From: Pseudomonadota bacterium
Lineage (GTDB): Bacteria; Pseudomonadota; Alphaproteobacteria; Rhizobiales; Hyphomicrobiaceae
Direction of reading: 5' to 3'
DNA length: 16,003 nucleotides
NCBI GenBank assembly: GCA_023430845.1
Contig: JAEYYJ010000094.1
Coordinates: forward strand, 1 to 16,003
Made by a program: the position numbers and the translations under genes. Below, in pieces: positions 2,760 to 14,006 of the stretch (position 1 is the first letter of the stretch; every line of letters starts with the position of its first letter). The notes beneath the pieces are model-generated. The model did not search any database, was not told the DNA's origin, and saw only the letters and a program-made list of their open reading frames with translations.

Positions 2760-4841
2760 ATGCGCCACGTCGGGAATAACCTATCGCGATCGGTGACGAT
2801 CGTCGTCAGCGCCGCGCTTGCATATGGATTGGCGGGCGCATCGACGGCGGTGGCGCAGCAGCAGCCGACGACATTGCCGTCGCTCGAAGTGCAGACCAAG
2901 AAAGCCGCCAAGAAGCGCCGGGCCCCTGCTGCCAAAGCGGCGGCGCCGGCGCCCGCACCGGCACCTGCTCAACCCGCTGAGGAGGTGACGCGGCCGCCCA
3001 TCACGGTATCGGGCCCGCCGAGCATCGGCGCGAACTCGGTCGACATCACATCACAGGATCTCGAGCGGCTGAATCCGACCGATATCAAGCGCGTGTTCTC
3101 CGAACAGCCGGGCATACTCGTCGGCAGTTCGTTGCCCATGTCGCAGAAGGTATATGTCCACGGTATCGAGGAAACCGCGCTTGCGGTCACCATCGACGGT
3201 GCTGCTCAGAACAACAAGATATTCCATCACAACGCGACGAACTTCATCGATCCGAGCCTGCTGAAGGCCGTGAGGGTCGATGCCGGTGTGGCGCCGGCAG
3301 ATGCCGGCTTCGGCGCGCTGGCAGGCTCGATCGTCTACGAGACTAAGGACGTACGCGACCTTATGGACCGTGATGGTCTCGGCGGCTTCGCGAAGACGCA
3401 GTTCAACACGAATGGCCGCGTATTCACCAATAGCCTGGCCGGCTACGGCATGGCGAAGGGCTTCGAGGTTCTCGGCTATTTCACGATCGGCGATGGCGAC
3501 AATTTCAAAGCCGGAAATGGAGACACTGTCGGCGGAACAGAGACCGATTTCTGGAGTGGCCTCGCGAAGTTCGCCTATCAAGCCCCGAGCGGCGACCGCT
3601 TCGAGATCAGCCACGATCGCCTCAGCGACGATGCCATGAGGCCCTATCGCGCCAACTTCTCGATGCCGCCGACGGGGCCTGCCGAACCTCTGTTCAGGCG
3701 CTATAATATCGACCGGCGCACCACGGTCTTCAACTATAGCGATGCCACGCCTCAGGGGTGGTGGGATCCGAAAATCGTGCTCGCTCATAGCGAGACAGAG
3801 CTGCGCACACCGTTTGTCCATCGCGTAACCGGTGCTATCTCACCGACCTACGGCAAATCCGAGAGCCTCAATGGCAAGGCCGAGAACAAATTCTCCTTCG
3901 CCGCCGGAAATGTCATTGCCGGTGTCGACTTCATCAAGCGCCGCGCCGCGCTCGACTACCCTGGCGAGTATCCGCGGGAGAAGAGCGATGTCATGGGAGC
4001 CTATGCTCAGGCCCGCCTCGAGCCGGTCGCAGGCACGCGTCTCTCGTTCGGCGGGCGCGCTGACCATCAGTGGTTCACAGGTGCGGATGGGAACACAGAG
4101 GACGATGGCGGGCTCAGCGGGAACATCTCGTTCGAGCAGGATCTGATCGGACGTTTCCTGACGGTCAAGGCCGGCTACTCCCATGTCTGGGCCGGCATCA
4201 TGCTGGCCGAGAATTTCATCATGGATCCGAGCTGGGACTACAGCGGTGGTCTCAGGGCCGCAGTGGCCGACAACGTCAACGCGGGCCTGATCGCGCGCTA
4301 CAAGGGGTGGACATTCGAAGGAAGTGTTTTCCGGTCCGAGATCGCCGACGCGCGCGTCCGAATGATCTCGCGAGACGTGGAGTCGGAGGGTTACGAGCTC
4401 GGTGTCGGTTATGATTGGGGCAACGGCTTTCTGCGTGTGAAGTACGCGGATATCAAAGTCCTGATCGATGGCGAGCCTGCGGACTCCGACACGGGAACGT
4501 ATCTCGCCACGCCGTCCGGGAGGTTCATCACGATCACGGGCGTGCACAAGTTCGAAGGCACAGGTTTTACCGTCGGCGCGGATGCCAAGATTGCTCCGGA
4601 GTACGACTTCGTGATCGCCGGCTCACCGCCGTACGAGGGCTACAAGGTCTTCAACGCTTTCGTCGAGTACAAGCCGAACACGCCGGTCGATCTGACCTTC
4701 CGCCTGGACGTCCGGAATATCTTCAACGAGACGTATGCCGAGCGTGCGACGTACGGTCAGGAGTGGATCATCACTGACAACGTCACGCCCCTTTACGAGC
4801 CCGGCCGATCGTTCATCTTGAGCGCGACGGCGAAGTTCTGA
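2760..4841 (+). CDS. TonB-dependent outer-membrane receptor
   Basis: This 693-residue receptor has the length and layout of TonB-dependent transporters for iron chelates or heme. Residues 1-32 form a signal peptide ending AVA before QQQ. Residues 47-73 are a Lys/Ala/Pro-rich linker (KKAAKKRRAP, then APAPAPAPAQ). Candidate TonB boxes are near SLEVQT (41-46) and ITVSG (81-85). The plug domain covers about 92-195 and includes VYVHGIEETALAVTIDGAAQ and the VRVDAG...GFGALAGSI stretch. The rest is a beta-barrel, with LDVRNIFNETYAE near the end and a terminal Phe as needed for outer-membrane insertion. TTGGAGAAG just upstream supports the start. It would bind ligand at the cell surface and import it using TonB-ExbBD energy. 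The substrate cannot be fixed from sequence; the YRAN motif is only loosely like the FRAP motif of heme receptors. A hairpin follows the stop. Confidence 0.9.
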   Translation: MRHVGNNLSRSVTIVVSAALAYGLAGASTAVAQQQPTTLPSLEVQTKKAAKKRRAPAAKAAAPAPAPAPAQPAEEVTRPPITVSGPPSIGANSVDITSQDLERLNPTDIKRVFSEQPGILVGSSLPMSQKVYVHGIEETALAVTIDGAAQNNKIFHHNATNFIDPSLLKAVRVDAGVAPADAGFGALAGSIVYETKDVRDLMDRDGLGGFAKTQFNTNGRVFTNSLAGYGMAKGFEVLGYFTIGDGDNFKAGNGDTVGGTETDFWSGLAKFAYQAPSGDRFEISHDRLSDDAMRPYRANFSMPPTGPAEPLFRRYNIDRRTTVFNYSDATPQGWWDPKIVLAHSETELRTPFVHRVTGAISPTYGKSESLNGKAENKFSFAAGNVIAGVDFIKRRAALDYPGEYPREKSDVMGAYAQARLEPVAGTRLSFGGRADHQWFTGADGNTEDDGGLSGNISFEQDLIGRFLTVKAGYSHVWAGIMLAENFIMDPSWDYSGGLRAAVADNVNAGLIARYKGWTFEGSVFRSEIADARVRMISRDVESEGYELGVGYDWGNGFLRVKYADIKVLIDGEPADSDTGTYLATPSGRFITITGVHKFEGTGFTVGADAKIAPEYDFVIAGSPPYEGYKVFNAFVEYKPNTPVDLTFRLDVRNIFNETYAERATYGQEWIITDNVTPLYEPGRSFILSATAKF

Positions 4842-4863
4842 TGGTCTGAGCAGAGAATGTCAT

Positions 4864-4892
4864 GCGCGTAATCGCCAAGCGCGGTTACGCGC
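4864..4892 (+). terminator. Hairpin after the TonB receptor gene
   Basis: GCGCGTAA (4864-4871) pairs perfectly with TTACGCGC (4885-4892) across a 13-base loop that can form a small inner CGC/GCG stem. GTTCTCTTTG follows, a modest T-rich tail. It starts 23 bases after the receptor stop, so it probably ends that transcript. The rest of the 241-base gap to 5082 holds only the tRNA-type terminator and the att copy listed separately. Confidence 0.55.
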
Positions 4893-5007
4893 GTTCTCTT
4901 TGTCGGTTGGCAGACTTGTCGAGCGGCGGGGTGTATCGCGAAACGCGCTGACAGAGCGACTACGTCACCCACCTTGAGCTTGGATTCGCGATGCCGGAAA
5001 AATATAA

Positions 5008-5036
5008 CCCGCGCATATCAATAAATTAGGCGCGGG
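5008..5036 (-). terminator. Intrinsic terminator, - strand; probable displaced tRNA-Ser terminator
   Basis: On the - strand the stem CCCGCGC/GCGCGGG with a 15-base AT-rich loop is followed directly by TTATATTTTT, a textbook intrinsic terminator. It lies three bases beyond the outermost copy of the tRNA-Ser 3' end (5040-5054). No - strand gene end is close: the nearest, the HepT-like stop at 5334, is about 300 bases away with a + strand gene between. Its position and strand fit the original terminator of tRNA-Ser(CGA), separated from the gene by later insertions. Confidence 0.7.
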
Positions 5037-5039
5037 CGA

Positions 5040-5054
5040 CTGGCGGAGAGGGAG
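5040..5054. repeat. Attachment-site copy A (tRNA-Ser 3' end duplicate), outer boundary
   Basis: CTGGCGGAGAGGGAG is identical to the 3' end of the tRNA-Ser gene at 12953-12967 and to a third copy at 10681-10695, all in the same orientation. The bases that follow (TCGAACTCGCG) still look like a damaged T-arm. This is the duplicate expected at the far end of an element inserted into a tRNA gene. Confidence 0.8.
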
Positions 5055-5082
5055 TCGAACTCGCGAACGTCTACTGAGGTCT

Positions 5083-5295
5083 ATGTTTGTCCTCAAGAGA
5101 CTGACAAATCATAACGACAGCTTGGTCAACTTGGCTCGCATCGTGTCGATCGAGCCGTGGGGACAGGATGGCTGCATGCTGCGCTTCGGAAGCAGCGACA
5201 AAAATCATTGCGTCTTCGTCGATCACCGTCCGGAAGAGATCTTGTTCCTGCCACGGGTCCATCCAGCCCCCAAAGGCGAACTGATAGGATGGTAA
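5083..5295 (+). CDS. Small hypothetical protein, 70 residues
   Basis: This short protein begins MFVLKRLTNHNDSLVNLARI and ends PKGELIGW. It has alternating hydrophobic residues and no signal peptide, membrane segment or cysteine cluster. The pattern of a short LTNHNDSLVNLARIVSIEP segment followed by a strand and EEI is loosely like FlbD-type small proteins, but this is too weak for a call. The ATG at 5083 has GAGGT only two or three bases upstream, closer than is ideal. It is the first gene inside att copy A and is convergent with the HepT-like gene. No better start or longer frame is seen. A function cannot be assigned. Confidence 0.5.
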   Translation: MFVLKRLTNHNDSLVNLARIVSIEPWGQDGCMLRFGSSDKNHCVFVDHRPEEILFLPRVHPAPKGELIGW

Positions 5296-5333
5296 CGCTC
5301 ACATCTAGCCATCGCCCGCGCCGCGCGAGCAGG

Positions 5334-5687
5334 TCAGGATTTGCTTTGAAGCTTCGCGATCGCCGCCTCGCAGGATAGGCGTAGCGGTGGCAGGTGTTCG
5401 GTGATGGTCTGCCAGATGGTCTGCTTGACTATGTTCGGATAGTCGTGGCGCAGCCAATTGCCGATACCTCGGATGTCACTCCACGGCTGGTCAGGAGCGA
5501 GTTCCTCCGCGAGCAGGCCGAGCTTGGTGGCGGCCTCGCTGATGCGAGATAGGCAGCGCTCGCTCGCATCATAGATCAGATGATTGGAGAAGAAGTCCTC
5601 TTCGCTCATGCCCTGCGTGTAGCCGGCGATGGCGTCGATGTTGTAGATGATGTCGCCGAAGCGCTTCTGAGGATCGCTAGAAGGCAA
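5334..5687 (-). CDS. HepT-like HEPN protein (DUF86), putative toxin RNase
   Basis: This 117-residue all-helical protein of the HepT/DUF86 family is predicted to be the toxin of a HEPN/MNT (type VII) toxin-antitoxin pair. Such toxins cut RNA as dimers and are silenced when the partner transferase modifies a Tyr near the active site. The conserved segment is WSDIRGIGNWLRHDYPNI (residues 69-86). The usual RNxxxH reads GNWLRH here, so the standard Arg position is Gly76, while H81 and Y83 are kept and Arg occurs at 73 and 80. RG-x-GN-x-LRH-x-Y is a recognisable variant of the family. The start codon is TTG, with AAGGA eight bases upstream. The gene overlaps the end of the MNT gene by 11 bases, showing translational coupling. 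Activity is not certain given the altered motif. Confidence 0.82.
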   Translation of the reverse strand: MPSSDPQKRFGDIIYNIDAIAGYTQGMSEEDFFSNHLIYDASERCLSRISEAATKLGLLAEELAPDQPWSDIRGIGNWLRHDYPNIVKQTIWQTITEHLPPLRLSCEAAIAKLQSKS

Positions 5688-5979
5688 ACTGCCGGTCCTT
5701 GTCGATGGCGGTCTTGAGAGGGCCTGGCTCCCTGGGCTCGGGGATCACGTCCACGTTCACCTTGAGCAGCTCGGTAAGGCGGAGCTTGATGCGATCGAGC
5801 GCGCCGAAGGCGTAAAAGCCGCGGAACCGCTCGTTGAGGCGCACGGCCACGTCCACGTCCGAATGGGGGCCTGCCTCGTCGCGCGCGGTCGAGCCGAACA
5901 GCGCCACGCTCGCGGCGCCGAGCTCCTTCAGCTCGGCCTCGTGATGGCGGATGACGGCAATGGCAGTTTCACGCTGCAT
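5677..5979 (-). CDS. MNT-type nucleotidyltransferase, putative antitoxin
   Basis: This is a minimal nucleotidyltransferase of 100 residues starting MQRETAIAV. The signature GSTARDE (29-35) followed by SDVDVAV (40-46) supplies the GS motif and the paired Asp residues that bind metal and nucleotide. In HEPN/MNT pairs this enzyme transfers AMP groups to the HepT toxin and neutralises it. It is encoded first, with the toxin gene overlapping its last 11 bases, the usual order for these pairs. A longer frame from a GTG at 6021 exists, but residues 1-14 of that version do not look like the family. No ribosome site precedes either start; TATTGT six bases before the ATG could be a -10 box for a leaderless message. 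The gene is divergent from the HTH-ImmA gene. Confidence 0.85.
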   Translation of the reverse strand: MQRETAIAVIRHHEAELKELGAASVALFGSTARDEAGPHSDVDVAVRLNERFRGFYAFGALDRIKLRLTELLKVNVDVIPEPREPGPLKTAIDKDRQFAF

Positions 5980-6177
5980 GACTGCACAATAGCACAAGGA
6001 AGCAACTGGAAGAAGCTTCACACTGGCGTCGCCAGGTGCCGCTGTAGCGCGGCCAAGGTCCGCAAGTCCGGTCGGAGAGGGCTGGATGTCAAATTCTTCC
6101 TTTTAGGTTGAATTATGGAGCCGATTAGGCTACGTGGAAATGGGGATCGAGGGGAGGAGCAGCGAGGAGCGCGGACC

Positions 6178-7089
6178 ATGGCCACACTGACACCATTCGG
6201 GGTTGCAGTTCGGAAATTGCGATTAGAGAAGGGGCTTCGACTGGTCGATATGGCGAAGCCGCTGGGCATGAGCACGGCATTTCTCTCGGCTATCGAGACA
6301 GGCCGGAAGCCAATTCCCGATGGCCTTCTCAGTAAGATTTCGAGGTCGCTGGAATGGACCGCAGGTGAACTCGCGCTCGTGCGTAGGGCCATCGAGCAGT
6401 CGAGGAAGGAGGTGCGTCTCGACGGCAAGAGTGCGGAGGATCGAGAGCTGATCGCGGCATTCGCACGGAGCATAGACAAGGTGCCCGCCGCAACGATTAG
6501 TCAGCTCAAGAAGCTGCTCTTGAAGTCCGTGCAGAGCGAGGTGCCGTTCCAGCGCTCCCGTCGGGGTATTGTAGTGCCTCCCCTCGGGACCGCAGCGCTG
6601 CGTCAGTTCGCGGAGAGCGTTCGAGCAGCGTTCGTACCCGAGGAGCGCGTGGACTTCCCGATCATGGATGTGATCGAGTTCGGGATTGCTAGCGTTGCGG
6701 ATCCCAACTTCGTCTTCGATGTCCAGGAAGTCGAGGAGATGGGCGAGAATGAAGGATTAGTGCCGATCGGTGGATGCACGCTGATCCTGCGCAGAGATGT
6801 CTATGAGGGCGCATGCCAAGGTGGTCGTCGGCACCGATTCACGGCAAGCCACGAGCTTGGGCACTACCTCCTCCACCGCCATATCACCTTCGCGAGGGCG
6901 CGTTCAGACAGCGACAAGATCTACACAGATAGCGAGTGGCAAGCGGACACATTCGCAGGAACACTCTTGATGTCGCCGCGGCACGCAGCGTCATTCTCGA
7001 ACTCGGATGAGATGGCGGAGGCCTGCATCACGAGTCGAAGCGCGGCCAGCTGCATGTGGGAGAAATATAAGGAGGAGCGCATCATCTAG
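6178..7089 (+). CDS. XRE-family HTH / ImmA-IrrE zinc peptidase fusion protein
   Basis: This 303-residue protein has an N-terminal XRE helix-turn-helix (about residues 8-58: LRLVDMAKPLGMSTAFLSAI and PDGLLSKISRSLEW). A helical linker precedes a C-terminal ImmA/IrrE (COG2856) domain with the HELGH zinc motif (225-229) and the downstream acid E253 in EWQADTFA. Proteins of this build act as repressors or as proteases that remove repressors, and control mobile elements or toxin pairs. The start at 6178 has GAGGAG upstream; an ATG at 6115 would add 21 residues of unlikely composition. Its 5' end faces the MNT/HepT pair across about 200 bases, so it may set the expression of that pair or of the island. 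The targets are unknown. All zinc-binding residues are present. Confidence 0.87.
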   Translation: MATLTPFGVAVRKLRLEKGLRLVDMAKPLGMSTAFLSAIETGRKPIPDGLLSKISRSLEWTAGELALVRRAIEQSRKEVRLDGKSAEDRELIAAFARSIDKVPAATISQLKKLLLKSVQSEVPFQRSRRGIVVPPLGTAALRQFAESVRAAFVPEERVDFPIMDVIEFGIASVADPNFVFDVQEVEEMGENEGLVPIGGCTLILRRDVYEGACQGGRRHRFTASHELGHYLLHRHITFARARSDSDKIYTDSEWQADTFAGTLLMSPRHAASFSNSDEMAEACITSRSAASCMWEKYKEERII

Positions 7090-7278
7090 CGCAAGGTTCA
7101 AAAGATAAGGGCCAACGCCGCGAGGCATTAGCCCATATCGAACACCGGTATTCTTCACTGGGCTAGGGGCTCGCCGGTGAGGGAGCCACAAGCGCAGCTC
7201 AATTGGAAGCCTAAGCACCTTCTAGTTGTAATAATCGCTCGCGCTTGTCAAGGCGAACGTCGCCCCGGAGGCTTCAGC

Positions 7279-7416
7279 ATGGCTAAGAAGCTGGCTGATC
7301 CCCCTCCCGGATATCGGTACATGTTCCGCCCGTGGCGGTACTGTCCGAAAACCGGACGTCGGCTCTACGCGAGTGCGTATGGGCTGAGGGCGTGGCCGAT
7401 TTTGGTGCGCGCCTGA
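7279..7416 (+). CDS. Small hypothetical protein, 45 residues
   Basis: This very short gene has a strong ribosome site, GGAGG, seven bases before the ATG. The product begins MAKKLADPPPGYRYMFRPWR and ends AYGLRAWPILVRA. It is basic and rich in Tyr, Trp and Arg, with no signal peptide. Its pattern (PPGY, FRPWRY, TGRRLYA, KAWPI-like end) resembles small conserved proteins of proteobacterial accessory DNA, from memory and not tested. The frame is open further upstream to 7177, but the ribosome site argues for the inner start. A perfect nine-base stem-loop follows the stop by eight bases. About 190 bases without a clear gene separate it from the HTH-ImmA gene. Confidence 0.6.
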   Translation: MAKKLADPPPGYRYMFRPWRYCPKTGRRLYASAYGLRAWPILVRA

Positions 7417-7424
7417 CAAGAAAT

Positions 7425-7449
7425 GGCGGAGGGGCTAGGTCCCTCCGCC
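7425..7449. terminator. Strong hairpin between convergent genes
   Basis: GGCGGAGGG (7425-7433) and CCCTCCGCC (7441-7449) form a perfect nine-base stem with a seven-base loop. On the - strand it is followed by ATTTCTTG, and on the + strand by TCCAGAGC. It lies between the small + strand gene ending at 7416 and the - strand Cys-rich gene ending at 7561, so it probably ends transcription from one or both sides. The T content favours the - strand. Confidence 0.6.
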
Positions 7450-7501
7450 TCCAGAGCTACTCATGTACCGGACCTCCTCGCGCACGGATGGACGCAATAG
7501 C

Positions 7502-7536
7502 CGGTGATCGTGATCGACTACTGGCCACGATCACCG
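7502..7536. repeat. 11-base inverted repeat downstream of the Cys-rich gene
   Basis: CGGTGATCGTG (7502-7512) and CACGATCACCG (7526-7536) are perfect complements around 13 bases. The repeat lies 25 bases beyond the stop of the - strand Cys-rich gene. No T-run follows on either strand, so it may be an mRNA 3' stabilising hairpin, a recombinase site or an incomplete terminator. Confidence 0.5.
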
Positions 7537-7560
7537 CTCGGGCACGGGGAACCCACTCAA

Positions 7561-8133
7561 TTAGCACCAGGTGCCATTGCAATTCCCCGTCACGTCAGAC
7601 CACGTGCAACATACACATTTCGCCGGCACAGCTTCACCATCCTTCAGACGATGGTAGACCTTTCCGTCGCGTATGGTGCCCTCGGCAACATCGTCATCAC
7701 CTTTCAACCCCAGACCACGCTTGTAGAATTCGCTGCTGGTCAACGCATAAAACTGGGCCTCGGCGTTCTCTCGACTTCTGAGTTCAACAATTGCAGCAAA
7801 AAAGCTCGGGTCCGAAAGGGGACCACCGAAGTTGCCCTCTACCCTGGCACTCTCTTCGACGAAACAAATGGGGGTATCGCCCAACCACTTGTAGGCACGA
7901 AGATCACGTCGCTTGGTGACAGAAACGCGATCGACGAAACTCGTAACCAAGCCTCCCTCACCTGAACGAGAGGTGATGCCGGCCTGACTGTCAAAGTCAA
8001 TTCCAAGGACGTCGATCTCGTGATCGATGCACGAGATTAGATACTTAGAACTGACATGAGCGGCGCGAGCTGCATTACGAACGCCAAGGAAGAACCCTTC
8101 AGCATAGGCGGGGCCGCATTGATGATCGGACAT
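7561..8133 (-). CDS. Unknown protein with a cysteine-rich C-terminus, 190 residues
   Basis: The family is not recognised. The start at 8133 (MSDHQCGPAYAEGFF) is chosen because AAGGAG lies six bases upstream; a longer frame to 8199 would overlap the recombinase gene. There is no signal peptide or obvious membrane span. The body is mixed alpha/beta in character, with charged stretches such as VDRVSVTKRRDLRAYKW. The last 18 residues hold five cysteines in the pattern C-x-C-C-x8-C-x4-C, ending at the terminal Cys; three more lie at 6, 35 and 90. This could bind metal, form disulfides or be a modification site. The gene follows the serine recombinase on the same strand after 56 bases, so the two are probably cotranscribed. 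It could be an accessory factor of the recombinase or unrelated cargo. The coding call is fairly safe; the function is unknown. Confidence 0.7.
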   Translation of the reverse strand: MSDHQCGPAYAEGFFLGVRNAARAAHVSSKYLISCIDHEIDVLGIDFDSQAGITSRSGEGGLVTSFVDRVSVTKRRDLRAYKWLGDTPICFVEESARVEGNFGGPLSDPSFFAAIVELRSRENAEAQFYALTSSEFYKRGLGLKGDDDVAEGTIRDGKVYHRLKDGEAVPAKCVCCTWSDVTGNCNGTWC

Positions 8134-8189
8134 GAGCAATCTCCTTCGGTTGCAATAAAATATGCTGGCGAATGTTACTACGGCGGTCG

Positions 8190-8804
8190 CTACGCGCAAG
8201 TAGTGGCAAAGGGAGTCTCCTTTGATGCCGCGAGGGCTCGATAGATCGTCTTCCGACTACACCCTAACCGCCGCGCGATAGCCGAAGCGCCCATGCCCTG
8301 TTCGCGAAGGGCTTTCACGTCGGCCGGCGCGACTTGGCGCTTGCGGCCCTTGTACACGCCCTTGGCTTTAGCGCTGGCGATGCCTTCCATCTGGCGCTCG
8401 CGGCGGAGCTCGGTCTCGAACTGACCGATCGCGCCCATGATCGCGAAGAACAGTCGGCCCGCCGGCGTCTCGGTCTCGATGCTCTGATGCAGGACCTGCA
8501 GGGCAGCGCCCTTCGCCTCGAGCGTATGCGAGATCGCGATGAGGTCGGAGATGCTGCGCGCCAGGCGATCGAGGCGGGTAACGACCAGCACGTCACCCTC
8601 CTTAATGAACTCGAGCAGGATCTGCAGCTGCTCGCGACCTTCGCGCTTGGTCCCCGTCGCCTTCTCGGAGCGGATGATTGAGCAGCCCGCGGCAGTTAGC
8701 TGCTCATGCTGGATCGTGAGATCCTGATCGCTGGTCGACACGCGAGCGTAGCCGAAGCGCTTGCGGCTTACCTCCATCGCTTCCTTGAGCTTGAGCTGTG
8801 TCAT
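8190..8804 (-). CDS. Serine recombinase, resolvase/invertase family
   Basis: This is a complete 204-residue small serine recombinase. The catalytic domain begins FGYARVSTSDQ with the nucleophile Ser23. The conserved Arg cluster VTRLDRLARS (75-84) and the E-helix ETELRRERQMEG (130-141) are present. A linker GRKRQV leads to a C-terminal helix-turn-helix (about 160-192: MGASAIARRLGCSRKTIYRA). Such enzymes cut DNA at short paired sites to resolve transposition products, invert segments or maintain plasmids. GAGG lies six to seven bases upstream of the chosen start; an inner ATG at 8777 is also possible. No transposase and no transposon end repeats are visible, and this type does not normally insert into tRNA ends, so it is probably cargo or a remnant of a transposon or plasmid. 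The Cys-rich gene lies downstream in the same direction. Confidence 0.93.
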   Translation of the reverse strand: MTQLKLKEAMEVSRKRFGYARVSTSDQDLTIQHEQLTAAGCSIIRSEKATGTKREGREQLQILLEFIKEGDVLVVTRLDRLARSISDLIAISHTLEAKGAALQVLHQSIETETPAGRLFFAIMGAIGQFETELRRERQMEGIASAKAKGVYKGRKRQVAPADVKALREQGMGASAIARRLGCSRKTIYRALAASKETPFATTCA

Positions 8805-8922
8805 TGGGATCCTCGTCTCGGATGCTGAGTGTCAAAGAGACCAAATCGGCCCTATCGGCGCGACATTCGCGGATGCTCGCGGTTGTGTCGGATGCGTACA
8901 CCCCATCGCCACTGCCGCGCGC

Positions 8923-8947
8923 GGGCTGGTTCTGTGTGAGCCAGCCC
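8923..8947. repeat. Hairpin downstream of the broken Tat-signal gene
   Basis: GGGCTGG (8923-8929) pairs with CCAGCCC (8941-8947) around 11 bases. It lies 13 bases past the stop of the second half of the broken exported-protein gene on the - strand, as a 3' end hairpin would, but no T-run follows. It also lies about 120 bases upstream of the recombinase gene and could be part of a recombinase site. Confidence 0.4.
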
Positions 8948-8959
8948 TGTTCACGAGAA

Positions 8960-9654
8960 CTAGGCGCTGCGTTGATTAGCGAGGCGAATGATGTGGTCGA
9001 TGATGAGTTTCGGCGTGCCGTCGGAGAGTTGACCGCCAGAACTCAGCACCTCGCTAGCAACTCTTGCAAGAACGACCAGGTCGGCAAACGAGTGCAAGTC
9101 AAAGTCTTCGATCTCGTCTCTAAGACGGTCCATGATGTCCCACTGCGCATCGAGCGCGGCGCAGGTATCCTCGACGCCGGCGGCGCGCTCGGCGGCTTGG
9201 TCCGCTGCTATGAAGCGATGTGCGCGCGGTCCTCGTCCCCGATATCCAGCCAGTAGGTTGGCCTCAACACAAATGTCCCGCCTTCGCGCCCCGACTTGCG
9301 ACTGCGTTGGGCGTAGTAGACTTGACCGAAGCCGCGCTGTAGCCGGCCCTCATCATCGGTCGGGGCTACAATTGCGTTAGGGATGGCCGGTGCTGTACGG
9401 AAATAAATATCGCGGGCTTCATCATCGCTGGTGTTCAAGCGTCGACCTTCGCGGCAAGCAGTTTGCCATTGATCGAACAGGCGAGCGAGAGCGGGAGTAG
9501 GGGCACCTGCTGTCGGCGCAGCTGTGGAAGTCTCTGCGGCCACGAGCGCTGACGTGGCGGCCGCAGTGGTGCCGGCAATGAAGCGCCGGCGAGATACCGA
9601 TCCTGGGTCGCCTGCCTCAACGTTGCGCTGGGTGGCTACGATCTTCGTCTGCAT
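8960..9654 (-). pseudogene. Exported (Tat-signal) protein gene split by a frameshift
   Basis: The first frame (9654-9208) encodes 148 residues starting MQTKIVATQRNVEAGD, with a twin-arginine signal SRRRFIAGTTAAATSALVAA followed by a small-residue stretch, and stops at DEDRAHIAS. The coding sequence clearly goes on in another frame: from about 9228 it reads AHRFIAADQAAERAAGVED, then DIMDRLRDEIEDFDLHSFAD, and ends at 8960 with IRLANQRSA. Joining the frames at the CCGCGCGCA tract gives one protein of about 230 residues. The shift equals two extra bases, as from CG dinucleotide slippage, or one lost base. The mature part is helical and acidic, with no known catalytic motif. AGGA seven bases before the start supports translation. 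It could be a true pseudogene, a sequencing error, or less likely a programmed shift. Confidence 0.65.
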
Positions 9655-9715
9655 GGTGATGTCCTTTCAGGTGAATGTGCTTCTCGGTATTGGCGCGGGC
9701 CGATCGGCGCCGGCG

Positions 9716-9814
9716 TCACGGGAGGGTGGGATGCGCATGACGAAGGCGATCGATCACTGCGTTGACCGCGCGCGCCAGAGGCACCCAGCTTTCAGTAAGC
9801 TTGGAGGGAGGCAT
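9716..9814 (-). CDS. Possible 32-residue micro-protein
   Basis: This short - strand frame reads MPPSKLTESWVPLARAVNAV and ends RHAHPTLP. Its ATG is 15 bases past the stop of the 40-residue gene, and its stop is 61 bases before the Tat-signal gene, so the three could form one operon. The upstream GGGATGG is a weak ribosome site. Amphipathic helix character is visible (WVPLARAVNAVIDRL). Chance frames of this size are common, so the call is tentative. Confidence 0.35.
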   Translation of the reverse strand: MPPSKLTESWVPLARAVNAVIDRLRHAHPTLP

Positions 9815-9829
9815 TGGAGCCCATCCCGA

Positions 9830-9952
9830 TCACGCGATCTGGAAGATGAGGCCGACGGCCACCGCGACGGCTATCGTGCCGGTCACGATGAGAATGCGGT
9901 CGATGCTGCGGATGTAGTCATCGGCGCTGGGGCCGTGGTACGGACGACGCAT
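9830..9952 (-). CDS. Small single-pass membrane protein, 40 residues
   Basis: This gene is easily missed because of its size. A strong ribosome site AGGAGAAG lies three bases before the ATG at 9952. The product begins MRRPYHGPSADDYIRSIDR, a charged cytoplasmic head, and continues with one hydrophobic helix, ILIVTGTIAVAVAVGLIF, ending QIA. It should insert in the inner membrane with the N-terminus inside (two Arg at the start). No family is recognised. It leads a run of small - strand genes (32-residue frame, then the Tat-signal gene). A regulatory or toxin-like membrane peptide is possible but is only inference from shape. Confidence 0.6.
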   Translation of the reverse strand: MRRPYHGPSADDYIRSIDRILIVTGTIAVAVAVGLIFQIA

Positions 9953-10026
9953 GGTCTTCTCCTGATGCTGTCAGGCGTTGATCTAGGCCTCGTCCAGCGC
10001 GCCAACGCTGAGCGGGGCCGCTTCGC

Positions 10027-10478
10027 TTACGCACTTAGAATATTGAGAAGGGTGGGAACCGCCTTGATGAACTCCCGGTTGGCTTGCTCGCTGAGATTGC
10101 GATCTTGGTGCTGAGGCGGGAGGCCCGATCGCCAATGGACCTGGAATAGTGCTTCGCAAGCACCGCGCGCGCCGCCACGTCGTCCGCGGTGTGAATGGGC
10201 TCGGACTAGGTCGCCTTGGCCGCATCGTCCATTGAGAGCAAGAGGTCGGTGAAAGACGCCATGGCGGAGCGAAGCTCGGCAGCTGGCAGCGTGTCCCAAG
10301 CTCCCGCGTTCACCCGATCAACAGCCTGCCAGAACGCAGCATCGAGGCGCAGGAGCGCCTCCGTCTTCGGCATTCGTGAAGAAGGGGCGCACGATGCACC
10401 CGTCAATGCTGTGAGCGAAACCGCTGCCGGGAGGCCGAGCACGAGCGCGCGTCGACCGATCGAAGAAGTATTCCGCAT
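10027..10478 (-). pseudogene. Broken gene for a small exported protein
   Basis: The intact first part (10478-10206) encodes 90 residues: MRNTSSIGRRALVLGLPAAV, a Tat- or lipoprotein-like signal with GRR and a hydrophobic core ending near SCAPSS, then a helical segment DAAFWQAVDRVNAGAWDTLP. A TAG at 10206-10208 ends it, but in the same frame the sequence goes on sensibly (SEPIHTADDVAARAVLAKHY). Farther on, the plausible coding frame changes and ends at 10027 with EQANREFIKAVPTLLNILSA. One in-frame stop plus one frameshift is the simplest reading. GAGGGG upstream of the ATG is a good ribosome site. Its layout (short exported helical protein) resembles the other broken gene nearby, so both may belong to one loosely related family. 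A real 90-residue protein remains possible. Confidence 0.5.
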
Positions 10479-10639
10479 TCACTGTCCCCTCACGAGTGTG
10501 CCACGTCCGCGTTGGTGCAGAGCGGAGCGGTCGATTTGGGGGAGCCACTGACATTGTTGAGCGATACGCGTGCTCAATTTGCGCTGTCGGGAGCATCCCC
10601 ACTGAGTTCGTGAGTCTGACCGTGCGTTCCGACAGATCG

Positions 10640-10659
10640 AAACAGCTATGGTGCTGTTT
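10640..10659 (+). terminator. Hairpin with T-rich tail next to att copy B
   Basis: AAACAGC (10640-10646) and GCTGTTT (10653-10659) form a seven-base stem with a six-base loop, followed by TAACTCAATAATTTTGG. It looks like a weak intrinsic terminator on the + strand, but no + strand gene ends nearby. It lies 21 bases before att copy B and may instead be part of the element end. Confidence 0.4.
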
Positions 10660-10680
10660 TAACTCAATAATTTTGGATAT

Positions 10681-10695
10681 CTGGCGGAGAGGGAG
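10681..10695. repeat. Attachment-site copy B (tRNA-Ser 3' end duplicate), junction of two units
   Basis: CTGGCGGAGAGGGAG is an exact match to the tRNA 3' end at 12953-12967 and to copy A at 5040-5054, in the same orientation. What follows (TTACCGACCCC) is not tRNA-like. The copy divides the accessory region into an outer 5.6-kb and an inner 2.3-kb unit, as expected when a second element inserts into the same tRNA site. Confidence 0.8.
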
Positions 10696-10754
10696 TTACC
10701 GACCCCAAAAATAAGCCGTTGAATAGGCCCAATCTTTTTCCGTCCGCTTACGGA

Positions 10755-10781
10755 TTCGGCCTAACCTCGGCCAACGCCCTC
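10755..10781 (+). repeat. Arm-like repeats, left end of the inner unit
   Basis: TTCGGCCTAAC (10755-10765) matches 9 of 11 bases of the unit repeated three times at 12817-12849 (CTCGGCATAAC). It is followed directly by CTCGGC and then CAACGCCCTC (10772-10781), an exact 10-base match to 12861-12870. Both ends of the unit therefore share two repeat types in the same order and orientation. Confidence 0.55.
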
Positions 10782-11127
10782 TAATTAACCGCATCCCCTC
10801 GATCTATCCCCTTCATGCGCAGGCGTTTTTTCTAACTCGACTCGTGACGGAAATCTACCGTTACGGTGTGTGCAGATGTTATGCCATGCCAATTAATCTG
10901 TTGACGGAATATTCCGGTGGCGCTAGGGCGGAATTGTCGGCCGGCTCGAGGCCACCCGAACAGCCACGCAGCGGGGACGACGCTGTGATTTTTAGAGGGT
11001 TATGATTTGGGGAATATCTCATCGCTTTAGCGAGCTAGGCTGGATGGACGTACCGCAAGGCGGGGTTCAAGGAAGTCGGTCGCACAAAGTCGAATGATTT
11101 ATTGGCGCTGCAGTTGCTTCCTCAAGA

Positions 11128-11158
11128 CATGCCGGACGCAGCGCCGTTCGCCGGCATG
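11128..11158. repeat. Hairpin just upstream of the 79-residue gene
   Basis: CATGCCGG (11128-11135) and CCGGCATG (11151-11158) pair perfectly around 15 bases. The hairpin ends 23 bases before the ATG at 11182, close to the ribosome site, so it could be an operator or a leader structure controlling that gene. There is no T-run to suggest termination. Confidence 0.45.
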
Positions 11159-11181
11159 CAATCAAGGTTGGAGTTCGTTTG

Positions 11182-11421
11182 ATGAGTGAATTTCGAAACG
11201 AGTCGGGTTTGGATTTCGTCGACATTGCTTGCGAGGCCGTGCGCACCTACGCATGGACGGGCGGTCAGTCACTGACGATTGAGAGCCCGCTCAAACTGCA
11301 CGTCGCCCCGAGCGGTAGCCATCGCATTTTCGACGCGGCGGGGCGGTCGCACTACGTGCCCGCCGGCTGGATTCATTTGACGTGGACGGCCAAGGATGGC
11401 GCGCCGCACTTCGTGAAGTGA
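11182..11421 (+). CDS. Hypothetical protein, 79 residues
   Basis: The product begins MSEFRNESGLDFVDIACEAV and ends WTAKDGAPHFVK. It is small, soluble in character and probably mostly beta in its second half (SLTIESPLKLHVAPSGSHRI, then HYVPAGWIHLTW). GGAG about eight bases before the ATG at 11182 supports this start; a TTG three bases earlier is less likely. It is convergent with the AbiTii gene, 62 bases away, and is the only other gene of the inner unit. No family is recognised. A role beside the defence-type gene is conceivable only from position. Confidence 0.6.
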   Translation: MSEFRNESGLDFVDIACEAVRTYAWTGGQSLTIESPLKLHVAPSGSHRIFDAAGRSHYVPAGWIHLTWTAKDGAPHFVK

Positions 11422-11483
11422 TAATCCATCTTGGATGACCGGCAGCATTGGATCGGGTTGGATGATTTTGACGCTGCCTGTCG

Positions 11484-12371
11484 TTACGCGGAGAGTTTGC
11501 CAAGCAAGCTGATGAACCCCTCGGCGACAACATTGCCAGAGGCGCCTTCCAATATTCTCTTCGCAGAGGCGGCTAGCGATGCCATGCGGGAGGGCGGCGT
11601 TGAAGGGTTTTCGATTTCGTCGAGAACTGGCGTGAGCTCATCGGCAGTCTGTTGGGGCATCTGCCCCAACAGCGGGCGAACCTGCGCGACAATGTCGACT
11701 AGCTTCTCCACGTTGATGTTGGCAGTGGCTGTCTGAGAATTCTGGACATTGCCGCCCGACACATCTCCGACAACCCCAGCATTCTGGATGAAGTAGTTTT
11801 TCGTCACGCTTGCGGCGACTTTCTCTTTGGTTGTGAACTGAAGGCCATGCCCGAGCACGCCGGCCTTTTCCAACTCTAGAGTCCAGTCGAGAACCATCGA
11901 TCGGACGCGCTCGACGATCTCCCACACTTGCGCCCTCGAAATCACGAGACGAGCTTCGCGCAATTGAAACCGACGAACAAGATCAGAGCGCACCCCTTGA
12001 TGTCCAGAGAAGCACACGATGTCATCGGACTTCCTGTCTTCGAATTCAACTTCAAGTGCCGCAATAGACAGTCCGATGGGTGATTGCGTAACTTTGTCCG
12101 CCAACTCGAGGGTTCCGAAATGTATCGTTTGCCATCCGGAGTAGGCGCCGAGGCCTTGCCACTCGCCTGATAGACGGCGATAGGTCGGCAAATCTTCAAG
12201 TGCCGACTCCATGTACCCGTTCGATTCGGCGTCTATCCAGACGAGCGCATCGGCGAGGTTGAGTTTCACAGCTATAACTTTGGCCATCCGGAGCAGGCGT
12301 GAGACCGGAACGGTGGGATCAAGGGCCTGTCGTTGAAGCTCTATGACTGCATAGCCTTGATCGTCTGCCAT
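11484..12371 (-). CDS. AbiTii-domain protein, putative phage-defence gene
   Basis: This 295-residue protein carries an N-terminal AbiTii domain (about residues 5-185). It is recognised by the pattern ALDPTVPVSRLLRMAKVIAV, the acidic helix with W45 and LxGY-like NGYMESALEDLPTYRRL, and a beta-rich second half. A flexible Gly/Asn/Gln segment (KNYFIQNAGVVGDVSGGNVQ, 191-210) links it to a C-terminal helical region (220-295). The domain is named for abortive-infection loci. Its biochemical action is not known to me, so a phage-defence role rests on family association and on this setting in a mobile unit. GGGGA seven bases upstream supports the start MADDQGYAV. It is transcribed alone, toward the 79-residue gene. 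Two adjoining hairpins lie just upstream of its start. Confidence 0.75.
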   Translation of the reverse strand: MADDQGYAVIELQRQALDPTVPVSRLLRMAKVIAVKLNLADALVWIDAESNGYMESALEDLPTYRRLSGEWQGLGAYSGWQTIHFGTLELADKVTQSPIGLSIAALEVEFEDRKSDDIVCFSGHQGVRSDLVRRFQLREARLVISRAQVWEIVERVRSMVLDWTLELEKAGVLGHGLQFTTKEKVAASVTKNYFIQNAGVVGDVSGGNVQNSQTATANINVEKLVDIVAQVRPLLGQMPQQTADELTPVLDEIENPSTPPSRMASLAASAKRILEGASGNVVAEGFISLLGKLSA

Positions 12372-12403
12372 TCGGCATCCCCCAAGTTGACCCCGGCATC
12401 GTG

Positions 12404-12445
12404 CTGTGTCGAAACACAGACGGGCGCCCCGTTGCCGAGGCGCCC
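12404..12445. repeat. Two adjacent hairpins upstream of the AbiTii gene
   Basis: CTGTGT-CGAA-ACACAG (12404-12419) is a six-base stem with a tetraloop. It is followed two bases later by GGGCGCC (12422-12428) pairing with GGCGCCC (12439-12445) around ten bases. They lie 32-74 bases upstream of the AbiTii start, in its probable leader. They could attenuate transcription, bind a regulator or insulate the gene from tRNA-side transcription. Confidence 0.45.
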
Positions 12446-12816
12446 TCCGTTCAAATCAGCCGCGACAGCGCAGCTACCATCGAAGCCCATCGCGGATGCA
12501 CGAGGCACCCGAAGGCCAGACGGTAGCGTGTACCGCACGGCTGACTGGCTTCGAGGACAAGAAACACACCCATTGGGTGGCCCCCATCATCGTGCGCGGG
12601 GTCCTAACTTAGTCGACATCGCGCGTTGAGCCAGCGTGGGGATTTTCGGGACGTTTAGTAGTCTACCCGGTGCCCCCTGCACGCCTCGACTATTCCGTGC
12701 CCAACTAATTGGGATGACGCCGAGCGCCTTCAAGGGCGTGCCGCCAGTTGTCCACAGACGCACGCCATGCACGCGCGCCACATACCCGTGGCCCATGTGC
12801 CGATCCAGCCCCCAAT

Positions 12817-12849
12817 CTCGGCATAACCTCGGCATAACCTCGGCATAAC
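12817..12849 (+). repeat. Three tandem copies of CTCGGCATAAC, right end of the inner unit
   Basis: Three perfect 11-base copies run head to tail at 12817, 12828 and 12839. After one further 11-base step without the motif comes CAACGCCCTC at 12861. The period of 11 bases, close to one helical turn, puts all copies on the same DNA face, as for protein-binding arrays. Degenerate copies lie at the other end of the unit. Integrase arm sites are the best guess; replication iterons are the alternative. Confidence 0.65.
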
Positions 12850-12952
12850 ATTCAGGCTTTCAACGCCCTCGGCCCCATTCGCCGAAAAGGCCGAAAATCT
12901 CAACAAAATCGGGGATTTGTGCGGACTTTAGTGGAGGGTGACGGATGGTGGT

Positions 12953-12967
12953 CTGGCGGAGAGGGAG
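12953..12967. repeat. Attachment-site copy C (within tRNA-Ser 3' end)
   Basis: CTGGCGGAGAGGGAG here forms the last bases of the functional tRNA-Ser gene: CCA, discriminator, the 3' acceptor strand and the first T-arm bases. It is the parental target site from which copies A and B derive. Confidence 0.85.
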
Positions 12968-13043
12968 GGATTCGAACCCCCGGTACGGTTACCCGTACTC
13001 CGCATTTCGAGTGCGGCGCGATCGACCACTCTGCCACCTCTCC
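12954..13043 (-). tRNA. tRNA-Ser (anticodon CGA)
   Basis: Read on the - strand, the gene starts GGAGAGGTGGCAGAGTGGTC and ends with CCTCTCC, discriminator G and an encoded CCA, 90 bases in all. The acceptor stem GGAGAGG/CCTCTCC is fully paired. The anticodon stem CCGCA/TGCGG encloses the loop CTCGAAA, giving anticodon CGA, which reads the serine codon UCG. A long variable arm (near GTACGGGTAACCGTAC) and a normal T-arm with TTCGAATC complete the class II fold. The gene is intact although its 3' end is the insertion site of two mobile units, because insertion rebuilds the end each time. A promoter fits about 50-80 bases upstream. Confidence 0.96.
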
Positions 13044-13093
13044 GGAGCCGCGTCCCTGCGCCTCGATGAGGCCCCGGTTCGTACGGCGCGCGG

Positions 13094-13122
13094 ACCATAT
13101 CTTGCGTCCCCCCGGAGCGCAA
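13094..13122 (-). promoter_or_regulatory. Sigma-70-type promoter for tRNA-Ser
   Basis: On the - strand, TTGCGC (13122-13117) and TATGGT (13099-13094) are separated by exactly 17 bases and resemble -35 and -10 boxes. Transcription would start about 43 bases before the tRNA, leaving a short leader that contains a GCCTC/GAGGC hairpin. The promoter sits just downstream of the stop of the DsbD-domain gene. Confidence 0.55.
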
Positions 13123-13148
13123 GCGGGCCTGTACGCAGAAAAGATGCG

Positions 13149-14006
13149 TCACTCGAGCTTGAGCGTGGTCTCGGACTGGCCTCGTGGCGAAACCAGGGTG
13201 ATGCGGATGGTCTTGCCCTTGAGGTCGGCGATTTCAGCCCCCTCCGTCAGATCGACGACGAAGCTCGCGCGATCGCCTTCGGTCGGACCATCGCGCATGG
13301 CCATGGGGATCCAGAGGCCGTCCGGCGCCTCGACGAAAACATCGCCGTCTCCAGCCCCACCGGGAAAGACGGCATCCAGGCGAATGGACGGCTTCTCGCC
13401 ACTGAGAATCACCGAGGCATTGCTGAGATCGGGATCGGCTGGACGCTGCGCGCCGAGCGGACGAGGTATGCGGTCGAACGCGTCGGCGAGATCGCTCGCC
13501 ATGGGCTGCTTCTCAGCGTTTGCCGGTATGAGCAAATCGAGATGTGCCTGCACCGGGATGCATATATCCTTGCAGACGCCGTACTCGAGTAGAACCTTGA
13601 GCCTGATGTCGCGCCCCGGCTCGGCCGGCCGCACGACGAGCGGCAGCATGACATGCCGCTTATAGCCGATCGTATCGCCGCTACGGTCATTCTGACGGCC
13701 GGGCGCTGGATAACGCATCTCGAGCGACGCGACATTGGTGGCGTTCGACCATTCCAACAGCGGCGGTACGCCCGACGAACCTGGATTGCGCCAGTACGTC
13801 TTCCAGTCCTTCGCAAGCTCGATCTCGATGCCGGCCGCGAGCGTGCCTGCGGAAGCACCGGGAGGAGGTCCGCCAGCTACAAGGCGTGCACGCGCGTGCG
13901 GCTCCGTTACCCAAGACGAAGCAAGCTGCACAGGCTCGGCGGCCGCACTCTGAAGCAGAGCCGACAGCAGCAACCCCATCACGGAGATCGACAGATTTCG
14001 GTGCAT
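13149..14006 (-). CDS. DsbD N-terminal (alpha) domain periplasmic protein
   Basis: This 285-residue exported protein resembles the periplasmic alpha domain of the thiol:disulfide reductase DsbD/ScsB, without the membrane and thioredoxin parts. The start MHRNLSISVMGLLLSALLQS at 14006 gives a clean signal peptide cut near AAA-EP, and GGTGA lies seven bases upstream. A GTG at 14030 would add eight residues. Family marks include ELAKDWKTYWRNPGSSGVPP (early body) and the cysteine pair in LLEYGVCKDICIPVQAHLDL, where DsbD-type proteins carry their redox cysteines. It probably passes reducing power to periplasmic or cytochrome c maturation proteins, with the membrane partner encoded elsewhere. It is divergent from the YqgE/AlgH gene and lies next to tRNA-Ser. 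Confidence 0.85.
   Translation of the reverse strand: MHRNLSISVMGLLLSALLQSAAAEPVQLASSWVTEPHARARLVAGGPPPGASAGTLAAGIEIELAKDWKTYWRNPGSSGVPPLLEWSNATNVASLEMRYPAPGRQNDRSGDTIGYKRHVMLPLVVRPAEPGRDIRLKVLLEYGVCKDICIPVQAHLDLLIPANAEKQPMASDLADAFDRIPRPLGAQRPADPDLSNASVILSGEKPSIRLDAVFPGGAGDGDVFVEAPDGLWIPMAMRDGPTEGDRASFVVDLTEGAEIADLKGKTIRITLVSPRGQSETTLKLE

Follow-up and report, generated by a model that had tools for sequence, protein, structure and literature searches.

Cis-mobilizable elements (CIMEs) are described as decayed integrative and conjugative elements (ICEs) or integrative and mobilizable elements (IMEs) that remain flanked by attachment (att) sites, and their tandem accretion has been described (PMC5704250). 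In Dehalococcoides, 15 islands at the ssrA gene were reported to be without an integration module (PMC3146451). tRNA genes are a usual target of tyrosine integrases (PMC4383910), and the attP site of the rhizobial element ICEMlSymR7A contains five arm-type motifs, attP and intS being reported as the sole element factors needed for integration (PMC11963761). Here, we analysed a 16,003-nucleotide stretch of a Hyphomicrobiaceae genome (contig JAEYYJ010000094.1), hereafter the window, in which an earlier note had proposed two mobile units stacked in the 3' end of a tRNA-Ser(CGA) gene. Unit R (10696..12952, 2.3 kb) adjoins the tRNA, and unit L (5055..10680, 5.6 kb) lies outside it. Both are bounded by copies of the tRNA 3' end and neither contains a recognisable integrase gene; unit R shares its ends, with different cargo, with units of a relative that uses the same site. 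We consider it somewhat more likely than not that the locus arose by tandem accretion of two integrase-less, att-flanked, CIME-like units in the tRNA 3' end, and that unit R was moved in trans by a tyrosine integrase from another element.

The locus resembles CIMEs, as these are described, in having att sites on both sides, no recognised integrase or transfer genes, and units stacked at one gene end. Unlike the CIMEs described there, the 2.3-kb unit R of the window shares short end blocks with units of different cargo at two tRNAs (PMC5704250). The Dehalococcoides ssrA islands are likewise tandem and bounded by RNA-gene repeats, but they differ, in the account available, by a large serine recombinase integrase, a tmRNA target and an rdhA-rich cargo (PMC3146451). 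The earlier note had itself stated that tandem insertion at one tRNA site is known for islands and satellites. As in the tRNA islands reported by Islander, an intact tRNA and a displaced 3' fragment mark the ends; unlike the units here, those islands must each contain an integrase gene, so that integrase-less units are filtered out (PMC4383910). Repeated arm motifs, like those proposed below, and a rhizobial tyrosine integrase are features of ICEMlSymR7A, but that element is conjugative, has its own integrase and bears another motif (PMC11963761). The Pseudomonas tmRNA islands moved by a jumbo phage also combine defence genes and 14-bp repeats with no transfer genes, but each is reported to encode its own tyrosine integrase (PMC12595487). 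Miniature inverted-repeat transposable elements (MITEs) and clusters of attC sites lacking integron integrases (CALINs) have no recombinase of their own and use one made elsewhere, as we infer here, but the helper described for them is a transposase or an integron integrase and the sites are different (PMC11389934). Stacked integrase-less islands are thus already known, and what is new at this locus is the sharing of ends with exchanged cargo and a family of 40-aa proteins. A limited literature search recognised no earlier description of these units.

The 15-mer CTGGCGGAGAGGGAG was found by exact search at 5040, 10681 and 12953 of the window, always on the + strand, in agreement with the earlier note; no other 15-mer occurs three times there, counting either strand, and the two further matches in the window each carry 3 mismatches. 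ARAGORN called one tRNA in the window, a tRNA-Ser(CGA) on the minus strand (12954..13043; Rfam RF00005, 53.8 bits), and this is the intact integration target. As the note had said, only the last copy lies in an intact tRNA. Since this tRNA is read on the minus strand, the 15-mer copies correspond to its 3' end and both units are located beyond that end, downstream. In the intact tRNA, the 3' end is formed by att copy 1 (12953..12967, +), so that 5040-12952 lies entirely downstream of the gene. Att copy 2 (10681..10695, +), which extends to 16 bp, is the boundary between units R and L, and att copy 3 (5040..5054, +) is the outer end of unit L, with GTTCGA, found in the tRNA T-arm, coming next after a gap of 4 nt. 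According to the earlier note, a 15-mer common across the genome would speak against the proposal. Among relatives, G025, G027 and G028 each contain the 14-mer twice, and G022 and G029 a single time; the reversed control gave 0 matches, which indicates that it is not a common genomic word in them.

The Dsb-like gene adjoining the tRNA was matched in 98 of the 103 genomes of the family. Twenty regions around it were fetched, several ending at contig ends, and tRNA-Ser(CGA) stood beside the Dsb-like gene in 3 of them (G025, G027 and G028). In G025, a 2.65-kb unit lies between the tRNA and the second 14-mer copy, its cargo being a 210-aa open reading frame (ORF) together with a radical-SAM-like gene whose Pfam match stays under the cut-off; a relative with a single unit at the same tRNA, which the earlier note had named as support, thus exists. 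G027 carries at this tRNA a 17-kb island with a tyrosine integrase, a helix-turn-helix (HTH) protein and a D5/DUF5906 protein, and the second 14-mer copy of G028 is on another contig, adjoining an integrase relative. A Dsb protein search in genome contigs gave 3 loci, none informative for the site, the L001 contig being without any tRNA. Among the 120 KdtA relatives listed, all that bear an organism name belong to Hyphomicrobiaceae or Hyphomicrobium. The claim that ordinary chromosome lies outside the units held on the right side, where KdtA-YqgE-Dsb-tRNA of the window and of G025 are 78% identical in nucleotides over 2,577 bp. On the left it was not demonstrated: the TonB gene, from which the empty site was also sought, was matched in 3 of 7 relatives, at best at 39% (G028), which does not establish this flank as ancestral chromosome. 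Next to the G028 TonB gene, an ABC match at 24% was all that appeared, and RpiR had no relative there.

Comparison with G025 showed that unit R is built from end blocks that recur around other cargo. The tRNA-proximal arm, block A (12734..12952, -), is 78% identical over 220 bp to the sequence after the second G025 att copy, and 79% over 111 bp to the sequence right after the G025 tRNA-Tyr(GTA), where a second unit, of 2.0 kb, lies between the tRNA and a 16-bp repeat of its end. Block B (12418..12734, -) and the distal block D1 (10949..11005, -) align with the tRNA-Ser unit of G025, the former at 91% over 317 bp and the latter at 98% over 57 bp, and the distal block D2 (10846..10931, -) matches the G025 tRNA-Tyr unit at 82% over 86 bp. 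Unit R therefore shares B and D1 with the tRNA-Ser unit, and A and D2 with the tRNA-Tyr unit, and the cargo is different in all three. The adjacent chromosome is only 78% identical, so plain descent would not predict such close matches for B and D1. A search of the 103 genomes located D1 and D2 nowhere but in the two G025 units, and this set of genomes yielded no parent element bearing these end blocks. In unit R, the cargo is a 295-aa AbiTii-domain protein (11484..12371, -; PF18864 2.5e-33; PADLOC AbiTii 1.1e-37), whose C-terminal part also gave a weak match in PADLOC (E 0.022 only) to AbiTi, the partner of AbiTii in AbiT defence, together with a small ORF (11179..11421, +) weakly matching phrog_27874 (PHROGs, E 1.7e-5). 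A defence function is suggested by these domain matches. Taken with the genes of unit L, matches in Pfam, PADLOC and PHROGs agree with the defence-like genes and the recombinase that the earlier note had placed between the 15-mer copies. As side observations, the tRNA-Tyr unit (L097, 15857-17959) carries block A and an HTH-containing protein and has no integrase match, and the palindrome CGGAATATTCCG at 10905-10916 in D2, kept in the G025 tRNA-Tyr unit, may be a protein-binding site.

Block A contains three tandem 11-bp repeats (12814..12849, +; GTTATGCCGAG read on the minus strand), which we propose to be integrase arm-type sites because of their place and period. The word GGCATAAC occurs 4 times in the window (0.24 expected), and all copies are in unit R, 3 in block A and 1 near the distal end, at 10878 (-). 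In the G025 tRNA-Ser unit, the pair GGCATAACCGTGGGCATAAC is present at each end. In G025 and G027 together, 86 distinct tRNAs are followed by 160 bp or more of sequence, and tandem repeats of period 10-13 stood within those 160 bp at 11 of these tRNAs, as compared with 38 of 1720 random stretches (2%). Four of the 11 had PF00589 within 3 kb downstream, 2 were the integrase-less G025 units, and 5 had neither. Among the four was the G025 tRNA-Ser(GGA), where tandem repeats are followed by a DUF6538 tyrosine integrase gene. Period-11/12 repeats after tRNAs without a tRNA-end repeat of at least 13 bp within 15 kb were also noticed (L119, L139, L144, L163 and L180), possibly orphan arms of lost or longer elements.

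We also looked for repeats of at least 13 bp of the tRNA 3' end within 15 kb, at the 85 distinct tRNAs of the same two genomes with at least 1.5 kb downstream, a limit that left the 17-kb G027 island outside the survey. Three tRNAs had one, at 2.6 kb (G025 tRNA-Ser(CGA)), 2.0 kb (G025 tRNA-Tyr) and 1.85 kb (G027 tRNA-Ser(GGA)), with 0 in the reversed control. The G027 unit (L167) is bounded by an 18-bp tRNA repeat and encodes one DUF4236 protein of 523 aa. The earlier note had called both the small size and the cargo set unusual. With units of 1.9-2.6 kb at 3 of 85 tRNAs, the size is less unusual than the note supposed; the missing integrase and the shared ends are what is unusual.

Ten ORFs, out of 30 frames of at least 80 aa listed for the region, the rest being mostly overlapping frames, were scanned with Pfam, PADLOC and PHROGs. 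Neither tblastn nor a profile search recognised a tyrosine integrase in unit R or unit L. Three island integrases gave no tblastn match inside 5040-12953 at E values up to 1, their two weak matches in the window being both outside the units. Likewise, a profile of 8 integrases run against the six frames of the window returned a single fragment (E 0.25, 12942-13589), outside the units, and found the G028 integrase, which is not in the profile set, at 2e-130. In G025, PF00589 was present at 15 places, none of them inside its two units. The units are thus without a recognisable integrase gene, as CIMEs are, and show none of the kind that Islander requires. No transfer family was found among the 10 ORFs, again as in CIMEs, and a search of 4700-13140 against plasmids (near mode) gave no match. 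Phage satellites (phage-inducible chromosomal islands or P4-like) are defined by an integrase together with a packaging or replication module; no packaging or replication family was found in the 10 ORFs, nor any integrase. The serine recombinase encoded in unit L was considered as the mover of the units and rejected as the main reading: none was seen in the G025 units, and resolvase/invertase-type serine recombinases are not known to target tRNA ends.

We propose that unit L would have inserted first at tRNA-Ser(CGA), an order suggested by its position, and that unit R would later have entered the intact tRNA end and displaced unit L outward. Unit R may be viewed as a divided attachment region, with block A and the tandem repeats by the tRNA and D2 with one repeat word distally, around an exchangeable cargo, here the AbiTii defence-type gene behind the conserved 40-aa gene. 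It would amount to attP plus cargo, probably excised and inserted by the tyrosine integrase of another element. The helper might be of the DUF6538-containing type, which shows the same layout of tRNA, tandem repeats and integrase gene at the G025 tRNA-Ser(GGA). The G027 and G028 integrases appeared less likely as helpers, there being no GGCATAAC in L038 or L037. More tentatively, and rather doubtfully, one may imagine attP-only cargo carriers, that is, a recombinase-less lineage of 2-3 kb hopping among the class II tRNA genes (Ser, Tyr) of Hyphomicrobiaceae via borrowed tyrosine integrases, perhaps DUF6538, and swapping defence cargo between the conserved blocks B and D1; the 40-aa protein would be a functional component that they share. 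If so, such units would relate to tRNA islands as MITEs do to transposons. Movement in trans would also mean that island finders demanding an integrase undercount small carriers of defence genes at tRNA genes; the end blocks, and the tandem repeats near tRNA 3' ends, would provide a sequence signature for finding them, and the 40-aa family a new marker.

Several observations weigh against accretion with movement in trans. The helper is drawn from layout only. The repeats beside the G025 DUF6538 integrase are different in sequence from those of unit R, and no exact GGCATAAC pair was found near an integrase in G025. The exact pair GGCATAACN2-5GGCATAAC had 3 occurrences in the 103 genomes, two being the ends of the G025 tRNA-Ser unit and the third lying in G056 between a tyrosine integrase gene and tRNA-Gln, but the reversed-pattern control gave 3 hits in 3 genomes, so that the number alone proves nothing and the weight in favour lies in the positions. 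The G056 integrase matches DUF6538 under the Pfam cut-off (18.7 of 27 bits) and had no BLAST relative in the other fetched loci, G025 integrases included (E 1e-4; positive control run). No block is common to all three units, because the two G025 units share none; block A, whose divergence equals that of the chromosome (78%), is possibly an old resident arm, and the G027 tRNA-Ser(GGA) unit has none of blocks A, B, D1 and D2. The empty tRNA-Ser site predicted by the earlier note was not found in the 20 regions, the 3 with the tRNA all having a second genomic 14-mer and other DNA downstream. Integrase may also have been lost separately in each unit. This leads to the alternative that both units are remnants of integrase-bearing tRNA islands, the integrase having been deleted after insertion, and are now immobile, which is the classic CIME origin. 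We regard it as a serious, though clearly less probable, possibility. Such a route is the published one (PMC5704250), this tRNA-Ser(CGA) is occupied by an integrase-bearing island in G027 (and probably also in G028), unit L has an old appearance and is without arm repeats, and the absence of a block common to all three related units is what patchy loss would leave. Yet neither the window nor the two G025 units yielded a recognisable fragment of an integrase, and end blocks shared with units of other cargo at two tRNAs would require repeated deletions that each spared the ends.

The evidence is weaker for unit L than for unit R, and the proposal of two stacked units, still the best reading of the locus, did not fare equally in its two parts: unit R is supported by its G025 relative and the shared end blocks, and unit L by two att copies and foreign-looking genes. 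Unit L has no end block in common with the other compared units and no arm-type repeats, and this too counts against two accreted units. It would fit a history in which unit R alone is site-specific, 5055-10680 belongs to a larger island or is plain accessory DNA, and the copy at 5040 marks something else, as would the left flank, not conserved in the 7 relatives searched. We hold this to be unlikely: all 15 bp of the 5040 copy match exactly, its orientation is that of the other copies, and T-arm sequence resumes beyond the gap. That the repeats arose by chance, which nothing but their short length would favour, is extremely improbable, with about 3e-5 exact copies expected and the same pattern at the same tRNA in a relative; for unit R it is refuted by the shared ends.

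Block B contains a 40-aa ORF (12451..12573, -) of an unannotated family, identified by profile and alignment; the window copy matched no Pfam or NCBIfam model. A profile search, admitting only proteins of 0.55-1.75 times the query length, retrieved 58 proteins among 5.8 billion, 50 of them exactly 40 aa long and none with a Pfam domain. Eight residues are invariant in 28 aligned sequences (M1, E8, A9, P12, Y17, R18, G22 and R38). The gene was present in 6 of the 103 family genomes, 3 of 397 genomes sampled from the order and, in a sample of 394 genomes from the family to which G305 belongs, 5; G305 itself was counted in both of the latter samples. The protein occurred in 1 viral contig (L083), with no match in phage and plasmid records; in G045, its frame is shifted. 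Six of 16 loci had a tRNA within about 1 kb of the gene (the window, G025, G045, G056, G086 and G680). In 2 others (G305 and G475), the gene is enclosed in a larger island that is bounded by att sites and carries an integrase confirmed in Pfam; it is therefore not confined to integrase-less units. Neither a nearby tRNA nor an integrase-bearing att-bounded island was seen at the other 8. One G056 locus (L089, 794-2478) has two tRNA-Gly(TCC) genes with identical last 25 bases, 1.6 kb apart, and between them an HTH gene, the 40-aa gene and a 148-aa gene.

Block B folds better than shuffled sequences (z -3.5). A structured RNA was nonetheless disfavoured, no Rfam family reaching threshold and substitutions favouring the 40-aa frame: in 8 sequences, the proportions of synonymous and nonsynonymous differences (pS and pN) were 0.448 and 0.223 in that frame, and 0.289/0.256 and 0.226/0.305 in the other two. 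We therefore prefer a small protein gene. Just 3' of its stop codon, folding and inspection revealed a G+C-rich, terminator-like hairpin (12422..12446, -), with no good T-run in the window copy. By eye, such a hairpin follows the ORF in 16 of 16 loci, with at least 4 Ts behind it in 13, the window being among the 3 without. A larger same-strand gene stands close behind the ORF in several of the 16 loci, not all. The ORF and hairpin might together act as an attenuator for the following gene, and it is our guess that the protein may be a small regulator or leader for cargo genes.

The cargo of unit L begins, at its outer end, with a HepT-like toxin gene (5334..5687, -; PF01934 3.1e-18) next to an MntA-like nucleotidyltransferase antitoxin gene (5677..6021, -; PF01909 1.8e-12), the adjacent pair that characterises type VII MntA/HepT systems; both proteins remained below the NCBIfam equivalog cut-offs. 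HepT proteins usually carry an RNxLxHxY-type motif, and the protein here has GNWLRHDY at the putative motif position. Further inward are genes for an HTH and M78 (ImmA/IrrE-like) protein (6115..7089, +; Pfam), a 212-aa protein of unknown family (7561..8199, -) with no Pfam, PADLOC, PHROG or NCBIfam match, and the serine recombinase (8190..8804, -; PF00239 2.1e-39; phrog_125), of the resolvase/invertase and not of the tRNA-integrase type. Two short open frames, 9208-9654 and 10206-10478, had no match in Pfam, PADLOC or PHROGs, the former having an NCBIfam match far under cut-off; they are candidates for the pseudogenes mentioned in the earlier note. Lastly, the 23-mer at 5251-5273, near the outer end of unit L, is 83% alike to that at 12793-12815 in block A, which may be a relic of related ends or chance.

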